Assembly: GCA_023484515.1 (NCBI GenBank)
Contig: JAMDAY010000026.1
Location: 1-40,541 of the forward strand
Origin: Patescibacteria group bacterium
Lineage (GTDB): Bacteria > Patescibacteriota > Doudnabacteria > UBA920
Direction: 5' to 3'
DNA length: 40,541 nt
The notes under the pieces are model-generated. The model saw nothing but the letters and a program-made list of their open reading frames with translations, was not told where the DNA came from and made no database searches. The position numbers were made by a program, and so were the translations under genes. Positions 13,246 to 40,233 of the stretch are shown here, piece after piece; positions within the stretch are counted from its first letter, which is position 1, and every line of letters begins with the position of its first letter.

Positions 13246-13279
13246 GTAGGGGCGGGTCTGGACCCGCCCCTACTTTTTT
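13246..13279. terminator. Bidirectional terminator between convergent genes
   Basis: GTAGGGGCGGGTC (13246-13258) pairs perfectly with GACCCGCCCCTAC (13261-13273), followed by TTTTTT on the plus strand. It ends the 10597-13188 gene and lies just downstream of the opposing gene. Its GTAGGGGC/GCCCCTAC arms belong to the same palindrome type found inside uvrC and at 33183-33239. Confidence 0.8.
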
Positions 13280-30953: not shown

Positions 30954-32846
30954 ATGGACAAACTTAAGGAAAAACTCAAGGATGTGCCCAAGCTGCCAGG
31001 CGTTTACCAATTTAAGGGAAAAAACGGCGAGGTGCTTTATGTTGGCAAAGCCAAAAACTTAAAGGCCAGAATAGGGCAGTATTTGGCCGGCCGCGACGAG
31101 CGGGAACAAATCCCCTATCTGCTGAAAGAGGCCGCGGATTTTGACTACACCGTGGTCAACAACGAGCTGGAAAGCCTGTTTTTGGAAAGCACGCTCATAA
31201 AAAAATATCTGCCGCGCTACAACATTATGCTGCGCGACGACAAAAACTACGCGTTCATTAAAATAGACTATTCCACGGAAATTCCGCAGATCCAAATTGT
31301 CAGGAAAGCAGACGGCCCTAAAACCTATAAGCTAAAACCTAAAAGCTACTTCGGCCCCTACACCGCCGCCTACAAGATCCGCAACACCTTGAATTTGGTG
31401 AGAAGGATTTTCCCCTACTGTTCGGCGCAAAAAGTGGGCAGCCGCCCGTGCTTTTACTATTATTTGCACCGCTGCCCGGGCGTGTGCATTGGAAAAATTA
31501 GCCTGGACGAATATAAAAAACATTTGGGCAAAATTGCGGACTTTTTGGCCGGCAACGTTTCCAAAGTCAAAAAAGAGCTGGCTGCGGAAATGAAAGCCGC
31601 TTCCAAGCGGCAGCAGTTTGAAAAAGCCGCGCGCCTGCGCGACCAGTGCAATGCCCTGGAAATATTGGAGCAAAAGCAGTCGGTAATTTTGCCGAAAAAA
31701 GTGGATTGGGACATTGTTTCTTTGGCTTTTGAAGCCGGCTATGCCTGCGTAAACCTGTTTAAGGTGCGCGAGGGAAAATTGTTTGACCGGGAAAACTTTG
31801 TCTACAGCGATCCGGAATTGCGTAATCCGTCCCGAACTGCGGAAAGTTACGAGGCAGACATAATCCAAACTTTCCTGGAAAAATACTATTTGGAAACCAG
31901 CAACGCCCCCAAAACGGTCTACACCCAAATTCCGGCGACAGATGCCGAACTTATAGCCCATATTGTAAGATCAAGGTTCAACAAAAAAACCGGAGTGATT
32001 TTTCCCCAAAAAGGCAAGCCCGCGGAACTGGCCAGGCTGGGACAGACTAACGCGGCCGAATATTTAAAAAACTGGCTAAAAAATTCGGCCGAGCACCGTG
32101 ACCGGATAAACGCGGCTCTAACGGAATTAAAAGAGGTGCTGCATTTGGAAAAAATTCCTGAACGGATAGAAGGCTATGACATTTCCAACATCCAGGGCAG
32201 CAATGCCGTAGGCAGTATGGTGGTCTTTAAAAACGGCTTGCCAGCCAAAAGCGAATACCGCAAATTTAGGATACGTTCAAAATCTACTCCGGATGATTTT
32301 GCCATGATGCGGGAAATGCTGGCACGGCGATTATCACGATTACCTGTAGGGGCCGGCCTTGGCCGCCCGACTGATAACGGACGCGCAAGCGCTGCCCCTA
32401 CAGCAGATAAATCATTCTGGGCCGCCCCTGATCTCATCGTTATTGACGGCGGCAAAGGCCAGCTTTCTGCTGCAATGGAAGCCTTAGATAAATATCAAAT
32501 ATCAAATATCAAATATCAAACTATAGGATTGGCTAAAAGGATAGAAGAAATTTTCCTGCCCGGCCGCAGCAATCCCATTGTCCTGCCCGAAACCAGCCCG
32601 GCCCTGCAACTGCTTCAGCGCCTGCGCGACGAAGCCCACCGCTTTAGCATTACTTATCACCGCCAATTAAGATCAAAGCAGGCGGTCAGGTCCGCGCTAG
32701 ACGATATCCCCGGCATTGGCCCCAAGACCAAAAAACTCCTCAAGCAAAAATTCGGCACCGTTAAAAACATCCGCCAGGCCAGCCTGGACGAATTAGCCGC
32801 CGTGGTCGGCGAACATTTGGCACAATTAATCCAGCAATCACTTTAA
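30954..32846 (+). CDS. uvrC: Excinuclease ABC subunit C, with an in-frame palindrome insertion
   Basis: The 630-residue product has the N-terminal GIY-YIG nuclease (GVYQF at 16-20, LYVGKAKNLKAR at 28-39) and a UVR motif (QFEKAARLRDQCNALE). It also has the RNase H-like nuclease (GYDISNIQGSNAVGSMVVF, LIVIDGGKGQLSAA) and a C-terminal helix-hairpin-helix pair (DIPGIGPKTKKLLKQKFG, ASLDELAAVVGEHLA). It makes the two incisions of excision repair. Residues of about 464-483 (PVGAGLGRPTDNGRASAAPT) are absent from the normal family pattern and are encoded by a palindromic repeat at 32345-32402. A 7-bp tandem ATATCAA run lies at about 32490-32520. Confidence 0.97.
   Translation: MDKLKEKLKDVPKLPGVYQFKGKNGEVLYVGKAKNLKARIGQYLAGRDEREQIPYLLKEAADFDYTVVNNELESLFLESTLIKKYLPRYNIMLRDDKNYAFIKIDYSTEIPQIQIVRKADGPKTYKLKPKSYFGPYTAAYKIRNTLNLVRRIFPYCSAQKVGSRPCFYYYLHRCPGVCIGKISLDEYKKHLGKIADFLAGNVSKVKKELAAEMKAASKRQQFEKAARLRDQCNALEILEQKQSVILPKKVDWDIVSLAFEAGYACVNLFKVREGKLFDRENFVYSDPELRNPSRTAESYEADIIQTFLEKYYLETSNAPKTVYTQIPATDAELIAHIVRSRFNKKTGVIFPQKGKPAELARLGQTNAAEYLKNWLKNSAEHRDRINAALTELKEVLHLEKIPERIEGYDISNIQGSNAVGSMVVFKNGLPAKSEYRKFRIRSKSTPDDFAMMREMLARRLSRLPVGAGLGRPTDNGRASAAPTADKSFWAAPDLIVIDGGKGQLSAAMEALDKYQISNIKYQTIGLAKRIEEIFLPGRSNPIVLPETSPALQLLQRLRDEAHRFSITYHRQLRSKQAVRSALDDIPGIGPKTKKLLKQKFGTVKNIRQASLDELAAVVGEHLAQLIQQSL
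32345..32402. repeat. GTAGGGGC-type palindromic repeat inside uvrC
   Basis: TGTAGGGGC (32345-32353) and GCCCCTACA (32394-32402) bound a 58-bp element with inner GGCC and CGCCCGACTG words. The 57-bp intergenic element at 33183-33239 has the same termini and the inner words CGCCCGAACTG and GCAAGC. The frame of uvrC is preserved through it. Confidence 0.8.
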
Positions 32847-32868: not shown

Positions 32869-33001
32869 AACCTTCTGCCTTATTGATAAAGCGACCTAAT
32901 TTCTGCGGAAGTCAAAAAGGTTGTCCACATAAATTGTTATTGCGCGCAATAGGGCGAAGGCATCCTTCCGGGATTAGCCTTCTAAAGTCAGATTATTGAG
33001 T

Positions 33002-33095
33002 GATGACGCACATCTGGGACAATCTTCCTTAAGTCTGGTTGATGATGGTTATTATCCGGCAATTTAAAAACCGCTTATCCCAGATGTGCGTCATC
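33002..33095. repeat. 18-bp perfect hairpin with 58-nt loop
   Basis: Arms 33002-33019 and 33078-33095 are perfect inverted repeats ending TCTGGGA/TCCCAGA at the loop, and the loop (33020-33077) is 58 nt, the same as in the element at 18613-18708. The outer stem sequence differs (GATGACGCACA here, AGAAGACCGTCC there). Confidence 0.7.
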
Positions 33096-33113
33096 GCCCA
33101 ACAAACACCTCCT

Positions 33114-33141
33114 GAACGCCACAACACGTGTTGTGGCGTTC
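33114..33141. repeat. Perfect 28-bp palindrome
   Basis: GAACGCCACAACAC is followed immediately by its exact reverse complement with no loop. It lies in the repeat-rich gap between uvrC and secG. No T-run follows, so it is not an obvious terminator. Confidence 0.7.
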
Positions 33142-33182
33142 CCATAGGGGCAAGGCTTAGGGTTTAATTACAAATTATCCTT

Positions 33183-33239
33183 TGTAGGGGCTGCCCTTTG
33201 GGCGCCCGAACTGCGGGCAAGCTTTAGCTTGCCCCTACA
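33183..33239. repeat. GTAGGGGC-type palindromic repeat, intergenic copy
   Basis: TGTAGGGGC and GCCCCTACA form the ends; inside lie GCCC/GGGC and CCCG/CGGG pairs and GCAAGC/GCTTGC. It is the intergenic relative of the element in uvrC. Confidence 0.75.
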
Positions 33240-33243
33240 TTCT

Positions 33244-33560
33244 TTATAGGTCTGTTGCCTGCTTTAGAGGGCAAGACTTCCAAGTATTCCGGCGTAACAT
33301 TAAAATATGCGGAATGAGCAGCTTAATGAATGGGGCAACTACTTCCTTTGTTTGCTCCGCGCCTGTCCTTGTAGGGACAGGTCTAGACCTGTCCCTACGT
33401 CTTTGACATCAATGACCAGCTTGGCAATGGCTTTATCCGGCGCATCCTTAGCCTTGTCCCTGCCGTCCTTGATGCCTGTGATCCTTAATCTGTGTCCTGA
33501 ACCGGAGATCTTCAAGTCGGCTGGAACAGGGTTTATCCGTAATCCGTGTTTATCTGTCTG
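33244..33560 (-). pseudogene. Possible decayed coding remnant broken by palindromes
   Basis: The minus strand shows coding-like stretches in different frames: ITGIKDGRDKAKDAPDKAIA followed by KLVIDVKD (about 33500-33400), then AYFNVTPEYLEVLPSKAGN (about 33310-33245). They are separated by stop codons and by the palindrome at 33371-33398. This could be the remains of one gene disrupted by repeat insertion. The outer part (33528-33590) is the repeated word ACGGATAAACACGGAT, which weakens the coding case. Confidence 0.3.
33371..33398. repeat. Perfect 28-bp palindrome (GTAGGGACAGGTCT type)
   Basis: GTAGGGACAGGTCT is followed immediately by its reverse complement. The terminal GTAGGG/CCCTAC links it to the GTAGGGGC family, including the terminator at 13246-13273. 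Confidence 0.7.
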
Positions 33561-33592
33561 CCTTGATCCGTGTTTATCCGTTTGCAGTCTAA

Positions 33593-35882: not shown

Positions 35883-37520
35883 TCAAGCCCAGGTGGCGGA
35901 ATTGGTATACGCGCACGCTTCAGGAGCGTGTGGGAGCAATCCCGTGGAGGTTCGAGTCCTCTCCTGGGCACCAGTAGTAACTTTTTGAGAATCAACAGAA
36001 TGGAGCGTTTTTTGCAAAGCAAAAAACGCACTTGTATTTTCGCCAAAGCCCTTTCCGCCTACGGCGGAAGCCGTGAAATCCCACAAATCCCCCCAGCGTA
36101 TGGAAACCGTTTTGTCCTTGATTTCAGGGTTAGAGCCGATTTTTTGAAAAAACTTCTTCCATTCCACAAAATTGGAAGTTTTTTCTAAATCAGCCGCTTC
36201 TTTCAAGGACAAAACGAAACTCCGCAAGGGTTCGATCCAATTCTTTCTCTGTTGCCCAAAATCCTTAAAACTTTCCTCCAATTTCGCTTTCTGACGAAGG
36301 AGAGTATCTTTTCGTTGTAAATAAATCTCACGCTCAATATCGCCGTCAAGATAAATCGAAACAAGTTTATCCATTTTCTCCTTCGTCTCGGAAAGTTTTG
36401 ACTTTATATTTTGGGCAACATTTCCTTTTTCTGAAATTGACTCTTGTTCCCAAGCAGTAATCTGCTTGTCCATTTTTTCAATTTCAGAAAAAGGAAGCGA
36501 CACTGTTTGAAGCAGAGTTTGCAATTGTGCGGCGAGGATTTTTTCTTGCGTATATGGCTGTGCGCACTTTCCATTTTTCTTAGTGCAACGATAGTAGGTG
36601 TAGCGTGTGCCAAATCGGTTCGTGGCATATTGCGCCGTAATCGCACAGCCGCACTCGCCGCACTTTGCAAACCCTGTAAACGCGAACGGTAGCGCAATTT
36701 TGGACTTTCTCGGCTTCTTGCGCGAAGTGAGCACCTTCTGCACTGCTTCAAACAGTGTCGGAGAAAGAATTGGTTCAAAGTTTCCGTTGTGCCATTCACC
36801 GCGATGTTTGATAAAACCGAGGTATGCTCTATTGGTCAACATTTTTACAACGGAAACTTTGGCGAGTGGCGTTCCTTTTTTCTGAACAACGCCATGATCC
36901 GCCAAAAAATCCGCTAGAGATTTCAAGGTATATGTTCCGGTGGCGTATTCCTCAAACGCTCGCTTGATAATACGAGATTTTACTTTGTCGGGTTCAATAT
37001 TTTTAGTTTTGTAATTGTTCACATATCCAAAAGGAGCGAGCGTGAGCCACTCTCCTCTACGGAGTTTTTGGCGGATACCGCGATTGATGTTTTCAATGAG
37101 ATTGTCGGAATAGTATTTGGATTGGCCGAACGCCACTTGCAACATGAATTTCCCTTGCGGAGTTGGCTCAAACCAAAACTGCGGAAAGCGTAAAGAAGCA
37201 ATTCTGTTGATGTCTATGAGGTAGATAATTTTCCCGCCATCAACAGAATTTCGGGCGAGACGGTCGGGGTGCCATGCCAAAATACCAAGCGGTTCACTAC
37301 TTGCCTCAATATACGCAATCATTTTGGCGAATTGGTCTCGCCCGGGCTTCTTTGCGCTTTTCGCTTCTGTAAATATTTTTACGATTTCAATGCGTTCTCT
37401 GCTCGCATATTCGCGTAATTCAAAAAGTTGTGCCTCAATGGACATTATTTGCTGGTCATCTTCCTCGGTGCTCTTGCGAGCATAGAGAACGCATTTAATT
37501 TTGGTTTGAGTTGTTTCCAT
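35883..37520 (-). CDS. Large serine recombinase (resolvase + recombinase + zinc ribbon)
   Basis: The 545-residue product has a resolvase catalytic domain with VLYARKSTE (Ser17) and HPDRLARNS (R87, R90). A recombinase domain (about 155-265, GEWLTLAPFGYV ... SLADFLADHGV) follows, then a zinc ribbon with C287/C290 and C312/C319, then a coiled coil (about 370-430). ATG 37520 was chosen over 37547 because METTQTKIKCVLYAR is the family-like start. Residues 472-516 are encoded by the left attachment arm. Residues 517-545 (ERTRTSTGLLPHAPEACAYTN...) are antisense to tRNA-Leu, so the C-terminus depends on integration. The first codons lie in the inverted attP copy. It probably catalyses integration and excision, and could invert segments between the repeats. 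Confidence 0.9.
   Translation of the reverse strand: METTQTKIKCVLYARKSTEEDDQQIMSIEAQLFELREYASRERIEIVKIFTEAKSAKKPGRDQFAKMIAYIEASSEPLGILAWHPDRLARNSVDGGKIIYLIDINRIASLRFPQFWFEPTPQGKFMLQVAFGQSKYYSDNLIENINRGIRQKLRRGEWLTLAPFGYVNNYKTKNIEPDKVKSRIIKRAFEEYATGTYTLKSLADFLADHGVVQKKGTPLAKVSVVKMLTNRAYLGFIKHRGEWHNGNFEPILSPTLFEAVQKVLTSRKKPRKSKIALPFAFTGFAKCGECGCAITAQYATNRFGTRYTYYRCTKKNGKCAQPYTQEKILAAQLQTLLQTVSLPFSEIEKMDKQITAWEQESISEKGNVAQNIKSKLSETKEKMDKLVSIYLDGDIEREIYLQRKDTLLRQKAKLEESFKDFGQQRKNWIEPLRSFVLSLKEAADLEKTSNFVEWKKFFQKIGSNPEIKDKTVSIRWGDLWDFTASAVGGKGFGENTSAFFALQKTLHSVDSQKVTTGAQERTRTSTGLLPHAPEACAYTNSATWA
35887..35973 (+). tRNA. tRNA-Leu (anticodon CAG), CCA encoded
   Basis: The 87-nt sequence folds as a class II tRNA. 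The acceptor stem is GCCCAGG/CCTGGGC, the D arm contains GGCGGAATTGGTATACGC, the anticodon stem CACGC/GCGTG encloses TTCAGGA (anticodon CAG), a long variable arm follows (TGGGAGCAATCCCGT), and the T arm is GGAGGTTCGAGTCCTC. Discriminator A and CCA are encoded at the end. The last six bases GCACCA form the core of the attachment site of the element that follows. The tRNA stays intact because the element restores these bases. Confidence 0.95.
35968..36107 (+). repeat. 140-bp inverted repeat 1, left copy (attL core + left arm P)
   Basis: Identical to the reverse complement of 37513-37652 over all 140 bp. It starts with the GCACCA core and contains the hairpins GCGTTTTTTGC/GCAAAAAACGC (36005-36029) and TTCCGCC/GGCGGAA (36053-36069). 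On the minus strand it encodes the recombinase C-terminal part (VSIRWGDLWDF...). Confidence 0.95.
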
Positions 37521-37652
37521 ACGCTGGGGGGATTTGTGGGATTTCACGGCTTCCGCCGTAGGCGGAAAGGGCTTTGGCGAAAATACAAGTGCGTTTTTTG
37601 CTTTGCAAAAAACGCTCCATTCTGTTGATTCTCAAAAAGTTACTACTGGTGC
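37513..37652 (-). repeat. 140-bp inverted repeat 1, right copy (inverted P arm + core)
   Basis: Exact inverted copy of 35968-36107. On the minus strand it ends with ATGGAAAC, the first eight bases of the recombinase gene, and so provides its start codon. At its outer end the TGGTGC core (37647-37652) is shared with inverted repeat 2. Confidence 0.95.
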
Positions 37653-38004
37653 TGTAATTATACACTTTGCGCGAACCTTTTTCGAACGGAAATTGAATGA
37701 ATGAATCAGCCCCGCCACCGCTCGCTCCGCTCGCGTGTCCCACAGAAAAATGTTCTCCGCTAATTTCTTTTTGCGCGCGCCGGATTTTTTCTTCTAAAAG
37801 GAAGAGAACATTTTTCTGTGGGTCTCTGCCCTCAATTCTTCGGGCAGGTGGCGGGGCTTCAATACGGACTCGGCAAAGCGAAAATCTTTTTTTCTGGGGC
37901 AAAAGGATTTTTCGCTTTGCCTCGGCTAATTTCCCGCCCGCAGGAGGGGTCTGGGGAGGAATGCGGGCGGGATTCCAAATTCGTTTTTCCGAAAAATTTG
38001 CGCC
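37647..38004 (+). repeat. 358-bp inverted repeat 2, left copy (core + P' arm)
   Basis: Identical to the reverse complement of 39876-40233 over 358 bp. The arm is a chain of nested dyads: 37708-37719/37847-37858 (12 bp), 37739-37757/37804-37822 (19 bp, perfect), CTGCCC/GGGCAG near 37826-37847, 37872-37884/37909-37921 (13 bp) and 37933-37942/37962-37971 (10 bp). It is open in several frames on both strands (for example 105 codons at 37697-38014), which I regard as a by-product of its composition. Confidence 0.95.
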
Positions 38005-38339: not shown

Positions 38340-39866
38340 ATGGACAAACTTTTAACGCTCACTGCTTCGCAAGGTTATCTACTCCTTGCCGTTTACGGCT
38401 TGATTATGATTTTGGTTACTTACTTTTTTGCTCGTTGGAAAAGGTATCGTTCAATTCAAGGATTTTTGGTCGCAGAAAGAAATGTGAAATGGTGGCTTGG
38501 AGCGGCGAGTATCGCCGCGTCTTGGATTTGGGCACCGGCATTATTTGTTTCTGTACAATCTGCGTACCAACAAGGATTGCCCGGAATTTTTTGGTTCACA
38601 TTTCCAAATATTATTGCACTTCTGATTTATATTTGGCTCGCGCCAAAAATCCGAGAAAAAATGCCATTTGGGTACACACTTCCTCAATACATAAAACACC
38701 GCCTGCAAAGTGAAAAAGTTCACAAAATGTATCTATTCCCATATTTTTTCTATCAGCTTATGGCGGTAACTGTTCAATTATTTGCAGGCGGACACCTTGT
38801 GTCTTTTCTAACTGGTATTCCATTTATAACCGCTATGTTAATTATGGCGGCGACAGTTTTAATTTACGCTTTTATCTCTGGACTAGAATCCTCATTCGTT
38901 ACGGACTTTATTCAATTTATTTCTATTGTTGTCGGTGTAGTAGTGGTCGTTCCTTGGGCTATTTCCGCCGCAGGCGGTTGGTCAGCAGTAAATCTCGGTT
39001 TGGGTGGAGTAACGGGACAATTTAGAAATATATTTGACCCAGGAGTTGCATTTTCTTTCGGTATCGTTACCGCCATTGGTTTGATTTCTGGCGCGATATC
39101 AGACCAACAATATTGGCAAAGAGCGTTTGCTATCAAAAAAGATAACCTTGTTAAATCTTTCGTTTTTGGTGCAATAATGTTTGGTATTGTTCCTGTTGCA
39201 TTGTCGAGCTTAGGATTTTTAGCGGCCAATAGTGCTTTAGGAATTACTTTGCCAGCTGGGGTTGATATTTCGCTGATCGGCGTAGCCGCCGTAAGTCACT
39301 TGTTGCCACTTTGGGCTATGGGATTATTCGTTATTATGCTTTTGAGTGCTCTGTATTCAACACTTGATTCCGGCGTAGTGGCAACAAGCTCGTTGTATGT
39401 TACTGATGTTGTCAAATATTCTGATAGAGAAAAGGAGATACTAGAAAAAATAGACCGAGGAACGCAACTTACTTCAGAAGAACAAACTATTGGCGAGAGA
39501 CTTGATGATAGAGGAGTAAAAAATTCAAGGAAAGCTATGTTTTGGATAACAGCTTTAGGATTATTGGTAGCTCTCGCCGCTAATTATATTCCTGGTTTTG
39601 GGTTAAAACATTTGTGGTGGATTTTTAACACTATTGCCGCTTGTGTGGTTGTGCCGACTATCTTGAGTTTATATTGGAGCAGATTGGACGCACGAGGAGT
39701 ATTTTGGGGAGTGCTTACCGCTTTTGTCATTGGCGTTCCACTTTTCATTTACGGAAACATCATTGATAAGCCAGTGTGGATAGTCGGAGCTTCACTGTTT
39801 ATAATTGCGGTAAGCACAGGTTTTTGTTTGGCTATGCCAAAGAAAAATCAAGAAGGGTTGGTTTAA
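38340..39866 (+). CDS. Sodium/solute symporter family (SSS) transporter
   Basis: The 508-residue product has about 13 hydrophobic helices and SSS-family features: an early FLVAERNVKWWLGAASIAASWIWAPALFV, the central SDQQYWQRAFAIKK loop, and the signature-like LYSTLDSGVVATSSLYVTDVVK. The substrate cannot be fixed; the QQYWQRAFA region recalls urea- and proline-type members. It should import a small solute with Na+. It is the only metabolic cargo of the element, is A/T-richer than host genes, and ends 9 bp before the right-hand repeat. Confidence 0.9.
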   Translation: MDKLLTLTASQGYLLLAVYGLIMILVTYFFARWKRYRSIQGFLVAERNVKWWLGAASIAASWIWAPALFVSVQSAYQQGLPGIFWFTFPNIIALLIYIWLAPKIREKMPFGYTLPQYIKHRLQSEKVHKMYLFPYFFYQLMAVTVQLFAGGHLVSFLTGIPFITAMLIMAATVLIYAFISGLESSFVTDFIQFISIVVGVVVVVPWAISAAGGWSAVNLGLGGVTGQFRNIFDPGVAFSFGIVTAIGLISGAISDQQYWQRAFAIKKDNLVKSFVFGAIMFGIVPVALSSLGFLAANSALGITLPAGVDISLIGVAAVSHLLPLWAMGLFVIMLLSALYSTLDSGVVATSSLYVTDVVKYSDREKEILEKIDRGTQLTSEEQTIGERLDDRGVKNSRKAMFWITALGLLVALAANYIPGFGLKHLWWIFNTIAACVVVPTILSLYWSRLDARGVFWGVLTAFVIGVPLFIYGNIIDKPVWIVGASLFIIAVSTGFCLAMPKKNQEGLV

Positions 39867-39875
39867 AATTGATTA

Positions 39876-40233
39876 GGCGCAAATTTTTCGGAAAAACGAA
39901 TTTGGAATCCCGCCCGCATTCCTCCCCAGACCCCTCCTGCGGGCGGGAAATTAGCCGAGGCAAAGCGAAAAATCCTTTTGCCCCAGAAAAAAAGATTTTC
40001 GCTTTGCCGAGTCCGTATTGAAGCCCCGCCACCTGCCCGAAGAATTGAGGGCAGAGACCCACAGAAAAATGTTCTCTTCCTTTTAGAAGAAAAAATCCGG
40101 CGCGCGCAAAAAGAAATTAGCGGAGAACATTTTTCTGTGGGACACGCGAGCGGAGCGAGCGGTGGCGGGGCTGATTCATTCATTCAATTTCCGTTCGAAA
40201 AAGGTTCGCGCAAAGTGTATAATTACAGCACCA
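39876..40233 (-). repeat. 358-bp inverted repeat 2, right copy (attR: P' arm + core)
   Basis: Exact inverted copy of 37647-38004, ending in GCACCA at 40228-40233, where the sequence switches to host-like DNA. The TATAAT at 40217-40222 reads outward across the core, into the chromosome in this integrated state. Confidence 0.95.

Follow-up and report, generated by a model that had tools for sequence, protein, structure and literature searches.

Palindromes tagged by GTAG have been described inside open reading frames (Di Nocera et al. 2013, PMC3733652), where head-to-head dimers are predominant and dimers or groups encode 20-30 residues; their hosts include genes for excinuclease ABC, UvrD, polymerase, ligase and tRNA synthetases. 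Repair genes seem to be over-represented among these hosts, and a mutator effect is speculated for repair genes that carry a REP (PMC3733652). In-frame GTAG REPs, uvr genes included, are known from that work; the palindromic elements of Rickettsia, of ~150 bp (Ogata et al., reviewed in PMC10969869), are the classical coding selfish palindromes. The uvrC element analysed here resembles the intragenic GTAG REPs (PMC3733652) in its GTAG palindromes, its head-to-head dimer form, its location within an ORF and its uvr host. It is like the REPIN/RAYT systems (PMC3116915, PMC2817692, PMC8266576) in being an inverted doublet with a short spacer, and Y1/HUH genes flanked by REPs are present in sister genomes; a bulge in the stem is common to the REPs of E. 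coli and those of this genome. The likeness to the Rickettsia elements is that of selfish palindromes set in frame in unrelated genes, with the peptide apparently tolerated.

The window, which is the whole stretch of 40,541 nucleotides that was analysed, corresponds to contig 13 in a genome of 1.30 Mb (G000; 36 contigs, 97.8% complete, apparently a MAG). The host is a Patescibacterium, as the preliminary description had guessed, and its close relatives bear the name Ca. Doudnabacteria. Patescibacteria have small genomes that are usually called streamlined. The family set comprises 22 genomes (G000-G021), and counts in sister genomes refer to four sisters, five genomes together with G000. The gene and its element are arranged as follows:

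30954..32846, + strand: uvrC, excinuclease ABC subunit C, 630 aa (TIGR00194, E 2e-163)
32346..32401, no strand: GTAG REP doublet (REPIN/BIME-like, head-to-head), 56 bp, in frame in uvrC, UvrC residues 465-483
32346..32369, + strand: left REP; GTAG, outer stem GGGC/GCCC, 1-nt bulge C, inner stem GGCC/GGCC, TT loop, 8/8 pairs
32370..32377, no strand: spacer between both REPs, ACTGATAA
32378..32401, - strand: right REP, inverted; outer stem GGGC/GTCC, bulge A, inner stem GCGC/GCGC, TT loop, 7/8 pairs

The palindrome reported in frame at 32345-32402 is present; the REP ends lie exactly at 32346 and 32401, and the flanking T32345 and A32402 lengthen the palindrome to 58 bp. The sequence of the element is GTAGGGGCCGGCCTTGGCCGCCCG-ACTGATAA-CGGACGCGCAAGCGCTGCCCCTAC (24 + 8 + 24 bp), two inverted REPs and a spacer that form one hairpin, as in a REPIN; 32345-32402 folds better than its shuffled versions both as DNA (z -2.87) and as RNA (z -3.70). 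The element is a GTAG REP doublet of the REPIN/BIME kind, because the anatomy of its arms fits the definition (PMC3733652, PMC8266576). The encoded peptide (residues 465-483) is VGAGLGRPTDNGRASAAPT, 19 codons free of stops, and the frame runs on into the LIVIDGGKGQ motif, whose D498 stands 15 residues past the REP-encoded segment; uvrC is a single ORF, in agreement with the earlier statement that the frame is kept. The extra residues had been correctly placed before this motif; their number, first given as about 20, is corrected to 19 codons, and the shortest loops among relatives are smaller by ~19 residues. The match to GCCCCTAC at 31354-31361 is not part of any element and consists of native FGPYT codons.

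The protein has the GIY-YIG N-terminal domain and the RNase H-like C-terminal domain of UvrC with its conserved D, D and H; the active-site columns D409, D498 and H562 are invariant in the UvrC alignment. Within the RNase H-like nuclease domain, the loop that receives the element connects helix 448-460 to strand 494-498. In the solved UvrCs a helix ending in RRxS is followed almost directly by PDLIVIDGG or its equivalent, and at this point the query has ~25 residues more than UvrC of T. maritima. The structures from T. maritima, D. radiodurans and B. stearothermophilus are without the REP-encoded segment, as are almost all relatives; the finding that would have marked these residues as native, their conservation in distant UvrC proteins, was thus not made. 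Across family members and outgroups the loop ranges from 7 to ~52 residues with both flanks conserved, and on this alignment evidence the segment is an insertion; the genus contains one genome, so that uvrC is compared with relatives outside the genus and the exact insertion junction is not seen. The loop model proposed in the preliminary description, an AlphaFold2 prediction from a 30-sequence alignment, gives residues 468-485 a pLDDT below 50 and the next block ~91, and the predicted RNase H domain superposes on 2nrr with a TM-score of 0.90 (target length). The nuclease fold is predicted to be kept and the REP peptide to form a disordered surface loop, based on the low pLDDT of the loop, the TM-score of the domain and the invariance of D409, D498 and H562; UvrC would be expected to stay functional.

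The element belongs to a family dispersed through the genome, which was followed by pattern searches and at the loci that these returned. The window has 7 occurrences of GTAGGGGC where 1.1 would be expected (0 of 100 shuffles reach 7), and across the 1.30-Mb genome the pattern GTAGGGGC-N20-50-GCCCCTAC is matched 13 times, with no match for the reversed control. The genome-wide count of GTAGGG...CCCTAC palindromes is 33, many of them in frame inside genes; 17 are long, with 52-59 bp, and the 16 short ones have 27-28 bp. The reversed patterns give 0 long and 2 short matches. In the long GTAGGGGC copies two inverted arms share a plan: GTAG is followed by an outer stem GGGC/GCCC, in most cases a single bulged base, an inner stem of 4 bp with variable sequence, and a short loop that is mostly TT. 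The 36 intragenic arms keep 269 of 288 stem pairs (93%) across 8 versions of the inner stem. All arms begin with GTAGGG and continue as an imperfect palindrome, as is characteristic of the GTAG REP superfamily; 33 dispersed palindromes is a low number for a REP family. None of the other 27 genomes of the class contains GTAGGGGC doublets. Further members of the family in the window, and the repeat island that holds two of them, are:

13246..13273, no strand: another short GTAGGGGC palindrome, from the pattern search
~32950..33590, no strand: mosaic intergenic repeat island of ~640 bp made of recurring pieces, containing the next two features
33184..33238, no strand: intergenic GTAG REP doublet of another subfamily, with near-identical intergenic copies
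33371..33398, no strand: short 28-bp palindrome GTAGGGACAGGTCTAGACCTGTCCCTAC, the genome's commonest short REP, from the pattern search

The uvrC element had been described as clearly related to the intergenic copy 0.8 kb downstream. The two share REP ends and hairpin plan, but the downstream doublet belongs to a different, near-identical intergenic subfamily and sits in the mosaic island, pieces of which recur at many other genome sites, mostly at 81-99% identity and up to 433 bp long; the copy at 33184-33238 is a structural cousin of the uvrC element and not evidently its source.

Other repeats were noticed elsewhere in the window. Perfect 358-bp inverted repeats (37647-38004 and 39876-40233) bracket a gene at 38340-39866 that by eye is sodium:solute symporter-like; the bracketed segment is possibly invertible, or possibly an assembly artefact. 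A 554-aa ORF on the - strand (35883-37652) looks like a serine recombinase; it has 140-bp perfect inverted repeats at its ends (35968-36107 and 37513-37652) and overlaps a tRNA-Leu(CAG) gene (35887-35973). The contig ends (1-129 and 40411-40539) are mutual inverted repeats at 99%, probably the place where the assembly broke.

At least 11 further copies are in frame in genes of this genome, in UvrB, LigA (in the zinc-finger loop), TrmD (two), RF1, ThrS (two, one long and one short), ValS, Kbl, a DOT1-like methyltransferase and a REP-type transposase; seven of these host proteins have solved relatives, and in all seven the alignment shows a gap or a poorly matched stretch where the copy lies. 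An extra stretch in ValS (residues 243-323) is by eye not repeat-like. Four sister genomes add 12 copies, in UvrC, two PcrA/UvrD-type helicases, RecR, TopA, RF2, LysS, LepA, GatB, transketolase (TKT), a flavin reductase-like protein and a membrane protein; a copy at a Mur ligase family gene (L153) was excluded, as the element probably precedes the true start. Across the five genomes 20 of 36 long doublets are intragenic, and two of the remainder (L183 and L184 of G020) are at contig ends. DNA-repair/replication or translation genes hold 18 of 23 intragenic copies, the transposase being excluded from the 23; p is ~2e-6 if 30% of coding DNA is assumed to lie in informational genes and 2e-4 if 40% is assumed. 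The contrast drawn in the preliminary description, an element of this kind "but in a repair enzyme", is a weaker exception than it appeared; the phenomenon is genome-wide, and repair genes were already reported as frequent hosts (PMC3733652).

The element is read in the GTA-GGG frame (VGA...) in 20 of 24 cases and in the other open frame in 4 (p 0.0015), the third frame giving TAG; this bias is as expected if a small, Pro/Gly-rich, flexible peptide is better tolerated. The flanking base is Y at the left in 23/24 and A at the right in 22/24. A fixed target duplication was searched for at the intragenic copies and not found, and intragenic element lengths fall in all three classes modulo 3.

The loop of UvrC that carries the REP, and two further loops, are repeat-laden in the family; in G000 the latter hold tandem repeats:

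31317..31348, + strand: (CCTAAAA)n, in frame, UvrC loop 1, before YFGPY (residues 123-127, pLDDT < 50)
32490..32520, + strand: perfect (AAATATC)4.4, in frame, UvrC loop 3 (KYQISNIKYQ), from sequence

In G018 the REP-bearing loop holds a second GTAG doublet; in G015 it has CATTGCGAG, a dispersed element of another kind, and a Kerfeldbacterium UvrC has a sequence like this CATTGCGAG insert. CCTCCCC palindromes occupy the loop in G019 and in one outgroup, and AT-rich repeats occur there in further relatives; of these sister inserts only CATTGCGAG was counted genome-wide, most of the others giving few matches among the stretches compared. Copies of a CATTGCGAG...GCAATGACA hairpin repeat are scattered through 12 of the 22 family genomes, the number of matches reaching 30 in G017. 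The loop of UvrB after VSATP likewise holds a GTAG doublet in G000 and different repeat-like inserts in G001, G004, G005, G008 and G009. Between VSATP and EQIIRPTGL, the UvrB proteins L220, L229, L219, L221 and L232 display differing repeat-like peptides, for example IPASEPESRTKKSGSRVKPGMT in G005. In the UvrC tree G018 falls in a clade with 99/99 support that excludes G000, the forks near G000 being open; because this clade separates the two genomes, two insertions into the UvrC loop are more economical than one ancestral insertion common to both. The target preference of one transposase hardly explains why several unrelated families share a loop; the shared hot loops point to a tolerance filter, the survival of in-frame inserts in tolerant loops, as a simple explanation.

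Genes with a Y1_Tnp match number three in G000 and are present in 14 of the 22 family genomes; G005 has 8 doublets, yet no Y1_Tnp match was found in this MAG, which is 92% complete. A Y1 gene with GTAG REPs on both sides, the arrangement of a REPtron, is found in two sisters. At L202 of G018 one REP ends at 1420 and the next begins at 1942, with ...GGCTGAAGCCAGCCCCTAC upstream and GTAGGGGCAGGGCTTGCCC at the 3' end; at L217 of G020 GTAGGGCC REPs lie at 1277 and 1838. The latter is a second REPtron type, that of GTAGGGCC REPs. L211 has a REP on one side only and is near a contig end; the G000 gene nearest in type, L016, has a 27-bp REP within its own ORF and is not flanked on both sides. This REP (L016/L157, contig 14, 57205-57231) directly follows the HUH motif of a Y1 transposase of the REP-associated kind, and L216, a relative of L016, has a GGGCGGATGAGATCCGCCCCTAC stretch near the corresponding place. 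In an NCBIfam scan of the three G000 transposases and L202 the sole family match was REP_Tyr_transpos (NF047646) at 47.8-60.5 bits, under the curated cut-off of 80 bits; judged by these scores, the transposases appear related to NF047646 and are not called members.

The uvrC element is very probably a mobile GTAG REP doublet, presumably moved by a RAYT and kept as a tolerated in-frame loop. A REP-associated tyrosine (Y1, HUH) transposase would most likely have carried the doublet into uvrC via single-stranded DNA, and the insert may have survived as it is stop-free, in frame and placed in a surface loop that tolerates 19 disordered residues. Such a filter would also account for the unrelated repeats in the UvrC and UvrB loops of sisters and for the many in-frame REPs in housekeeping genes. 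The REP may instead have reached the loop by template switching, gene conversion or illegitimate recombination between repeats, a route that fits the lack of both a target duplication and a fixed net length, the movement of intergenic copies within larger mosaic repeats and the REPs of G005 without a Y1 match; it is considered unlikely given the sharp GTAG/CTAC ends in unrelated flanks, the Y and A that border nearly all intragenic copies, and the REP-flanked Y1 genes of sisters. A native, ancestral origin of the segment within UvrC is contradicted, and highly improbable: a similar peptide occurs at the same UvrC loop in G018, but the segment is missing from outgroups, from UvrCs in the PDB and from other members of the G018 clade, and its DNA is a palindrome from a dispersed family. 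An assembly artefact is barely credible even in a genome of 36 contigs that is apparently a MAG, as the intragenic copies all differ in sequence, each with its frame intact, and the same phenomenon is seen in independently assembled relatives.

Two further explanations concern the effect of the insert on the gene. One gene with three repeat-derived inserts might be on its way to loss, the REP being an early inactivating hit; this is very unlikely, as the frame is open over all 630 codons, none of the active-site columns varies, the match to TIGR00194 is strong (2e-163), and relatives with equally many inserts keep their frames open. Domestication, in which the insert alters UvrC activity (for example a mutator effect) or an mRNA hairpin tunes uvrC translation, could draw on the stable RNA fold (z -3.7) and on the share of intragenic copies in repair/replication or translation genes (18/23, against an assumed baseline); the peptide is predicted to be disordered, however, the same loop holds unrelated repeats or none in different species, and sequence and length of the insert are unconserved, as expected of something merely tolerated, which makes this reading improbable. 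It is equally doubtful that REP insertions are steered to, or favoured in, repair and translation genes, with loops that adjust repair, for example as mutator tuning via UvrB, UvrC and UvrD. The tolerated doublet remains the preferred reading, with the insert probably close to neutral.

The Rickettsia comparison of the preliminary description is right in kind; its sequence makes the uvrC element a GTAG REP doublet, and the lineage has a RAYT-type transposase. Assignment to the Rickettsia palindromic elements was rejected, as the element measures 56 bp and is of the GTAG type against ~150 bp, and the two only work alike; the copies here are GTAG REPs of 27-64 bp with an identifiable transposase class. 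No earlier report of intragenic REPs in Patescibacteria was found in a literature search from which most subscription journals were out of reach; as far as this literature goes, the phylum, the density and the repeated hits of unrelated repeats in the same loops are new. The analysis brings a little-studied phenomenon, selfish palindromes turned coding, into Patescibacteria; it repeats the 2013 claim of repair genes as favoured hosts in an independent phylum, and adds several unrelated families per UvrC or UvrB loop. Through this recurrence in the same loops, tolerance filter versus targeting becomes testable by comparative genomics, and REP-bearing proteins provide natural maps of insertion-tolerant sites. 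Compared with the REPIN/RAYT systems, the genome has 33 palindromes instead of hundreds, many copies are intragenic instead of extragenic, and the transposases score 48-61 bits on NF047646 (cut-off 80); compared with the intragenic REPs of PMC3733652, the REPs have struck the same UvrC loop in two species, and unrelated repeats are found there as well.
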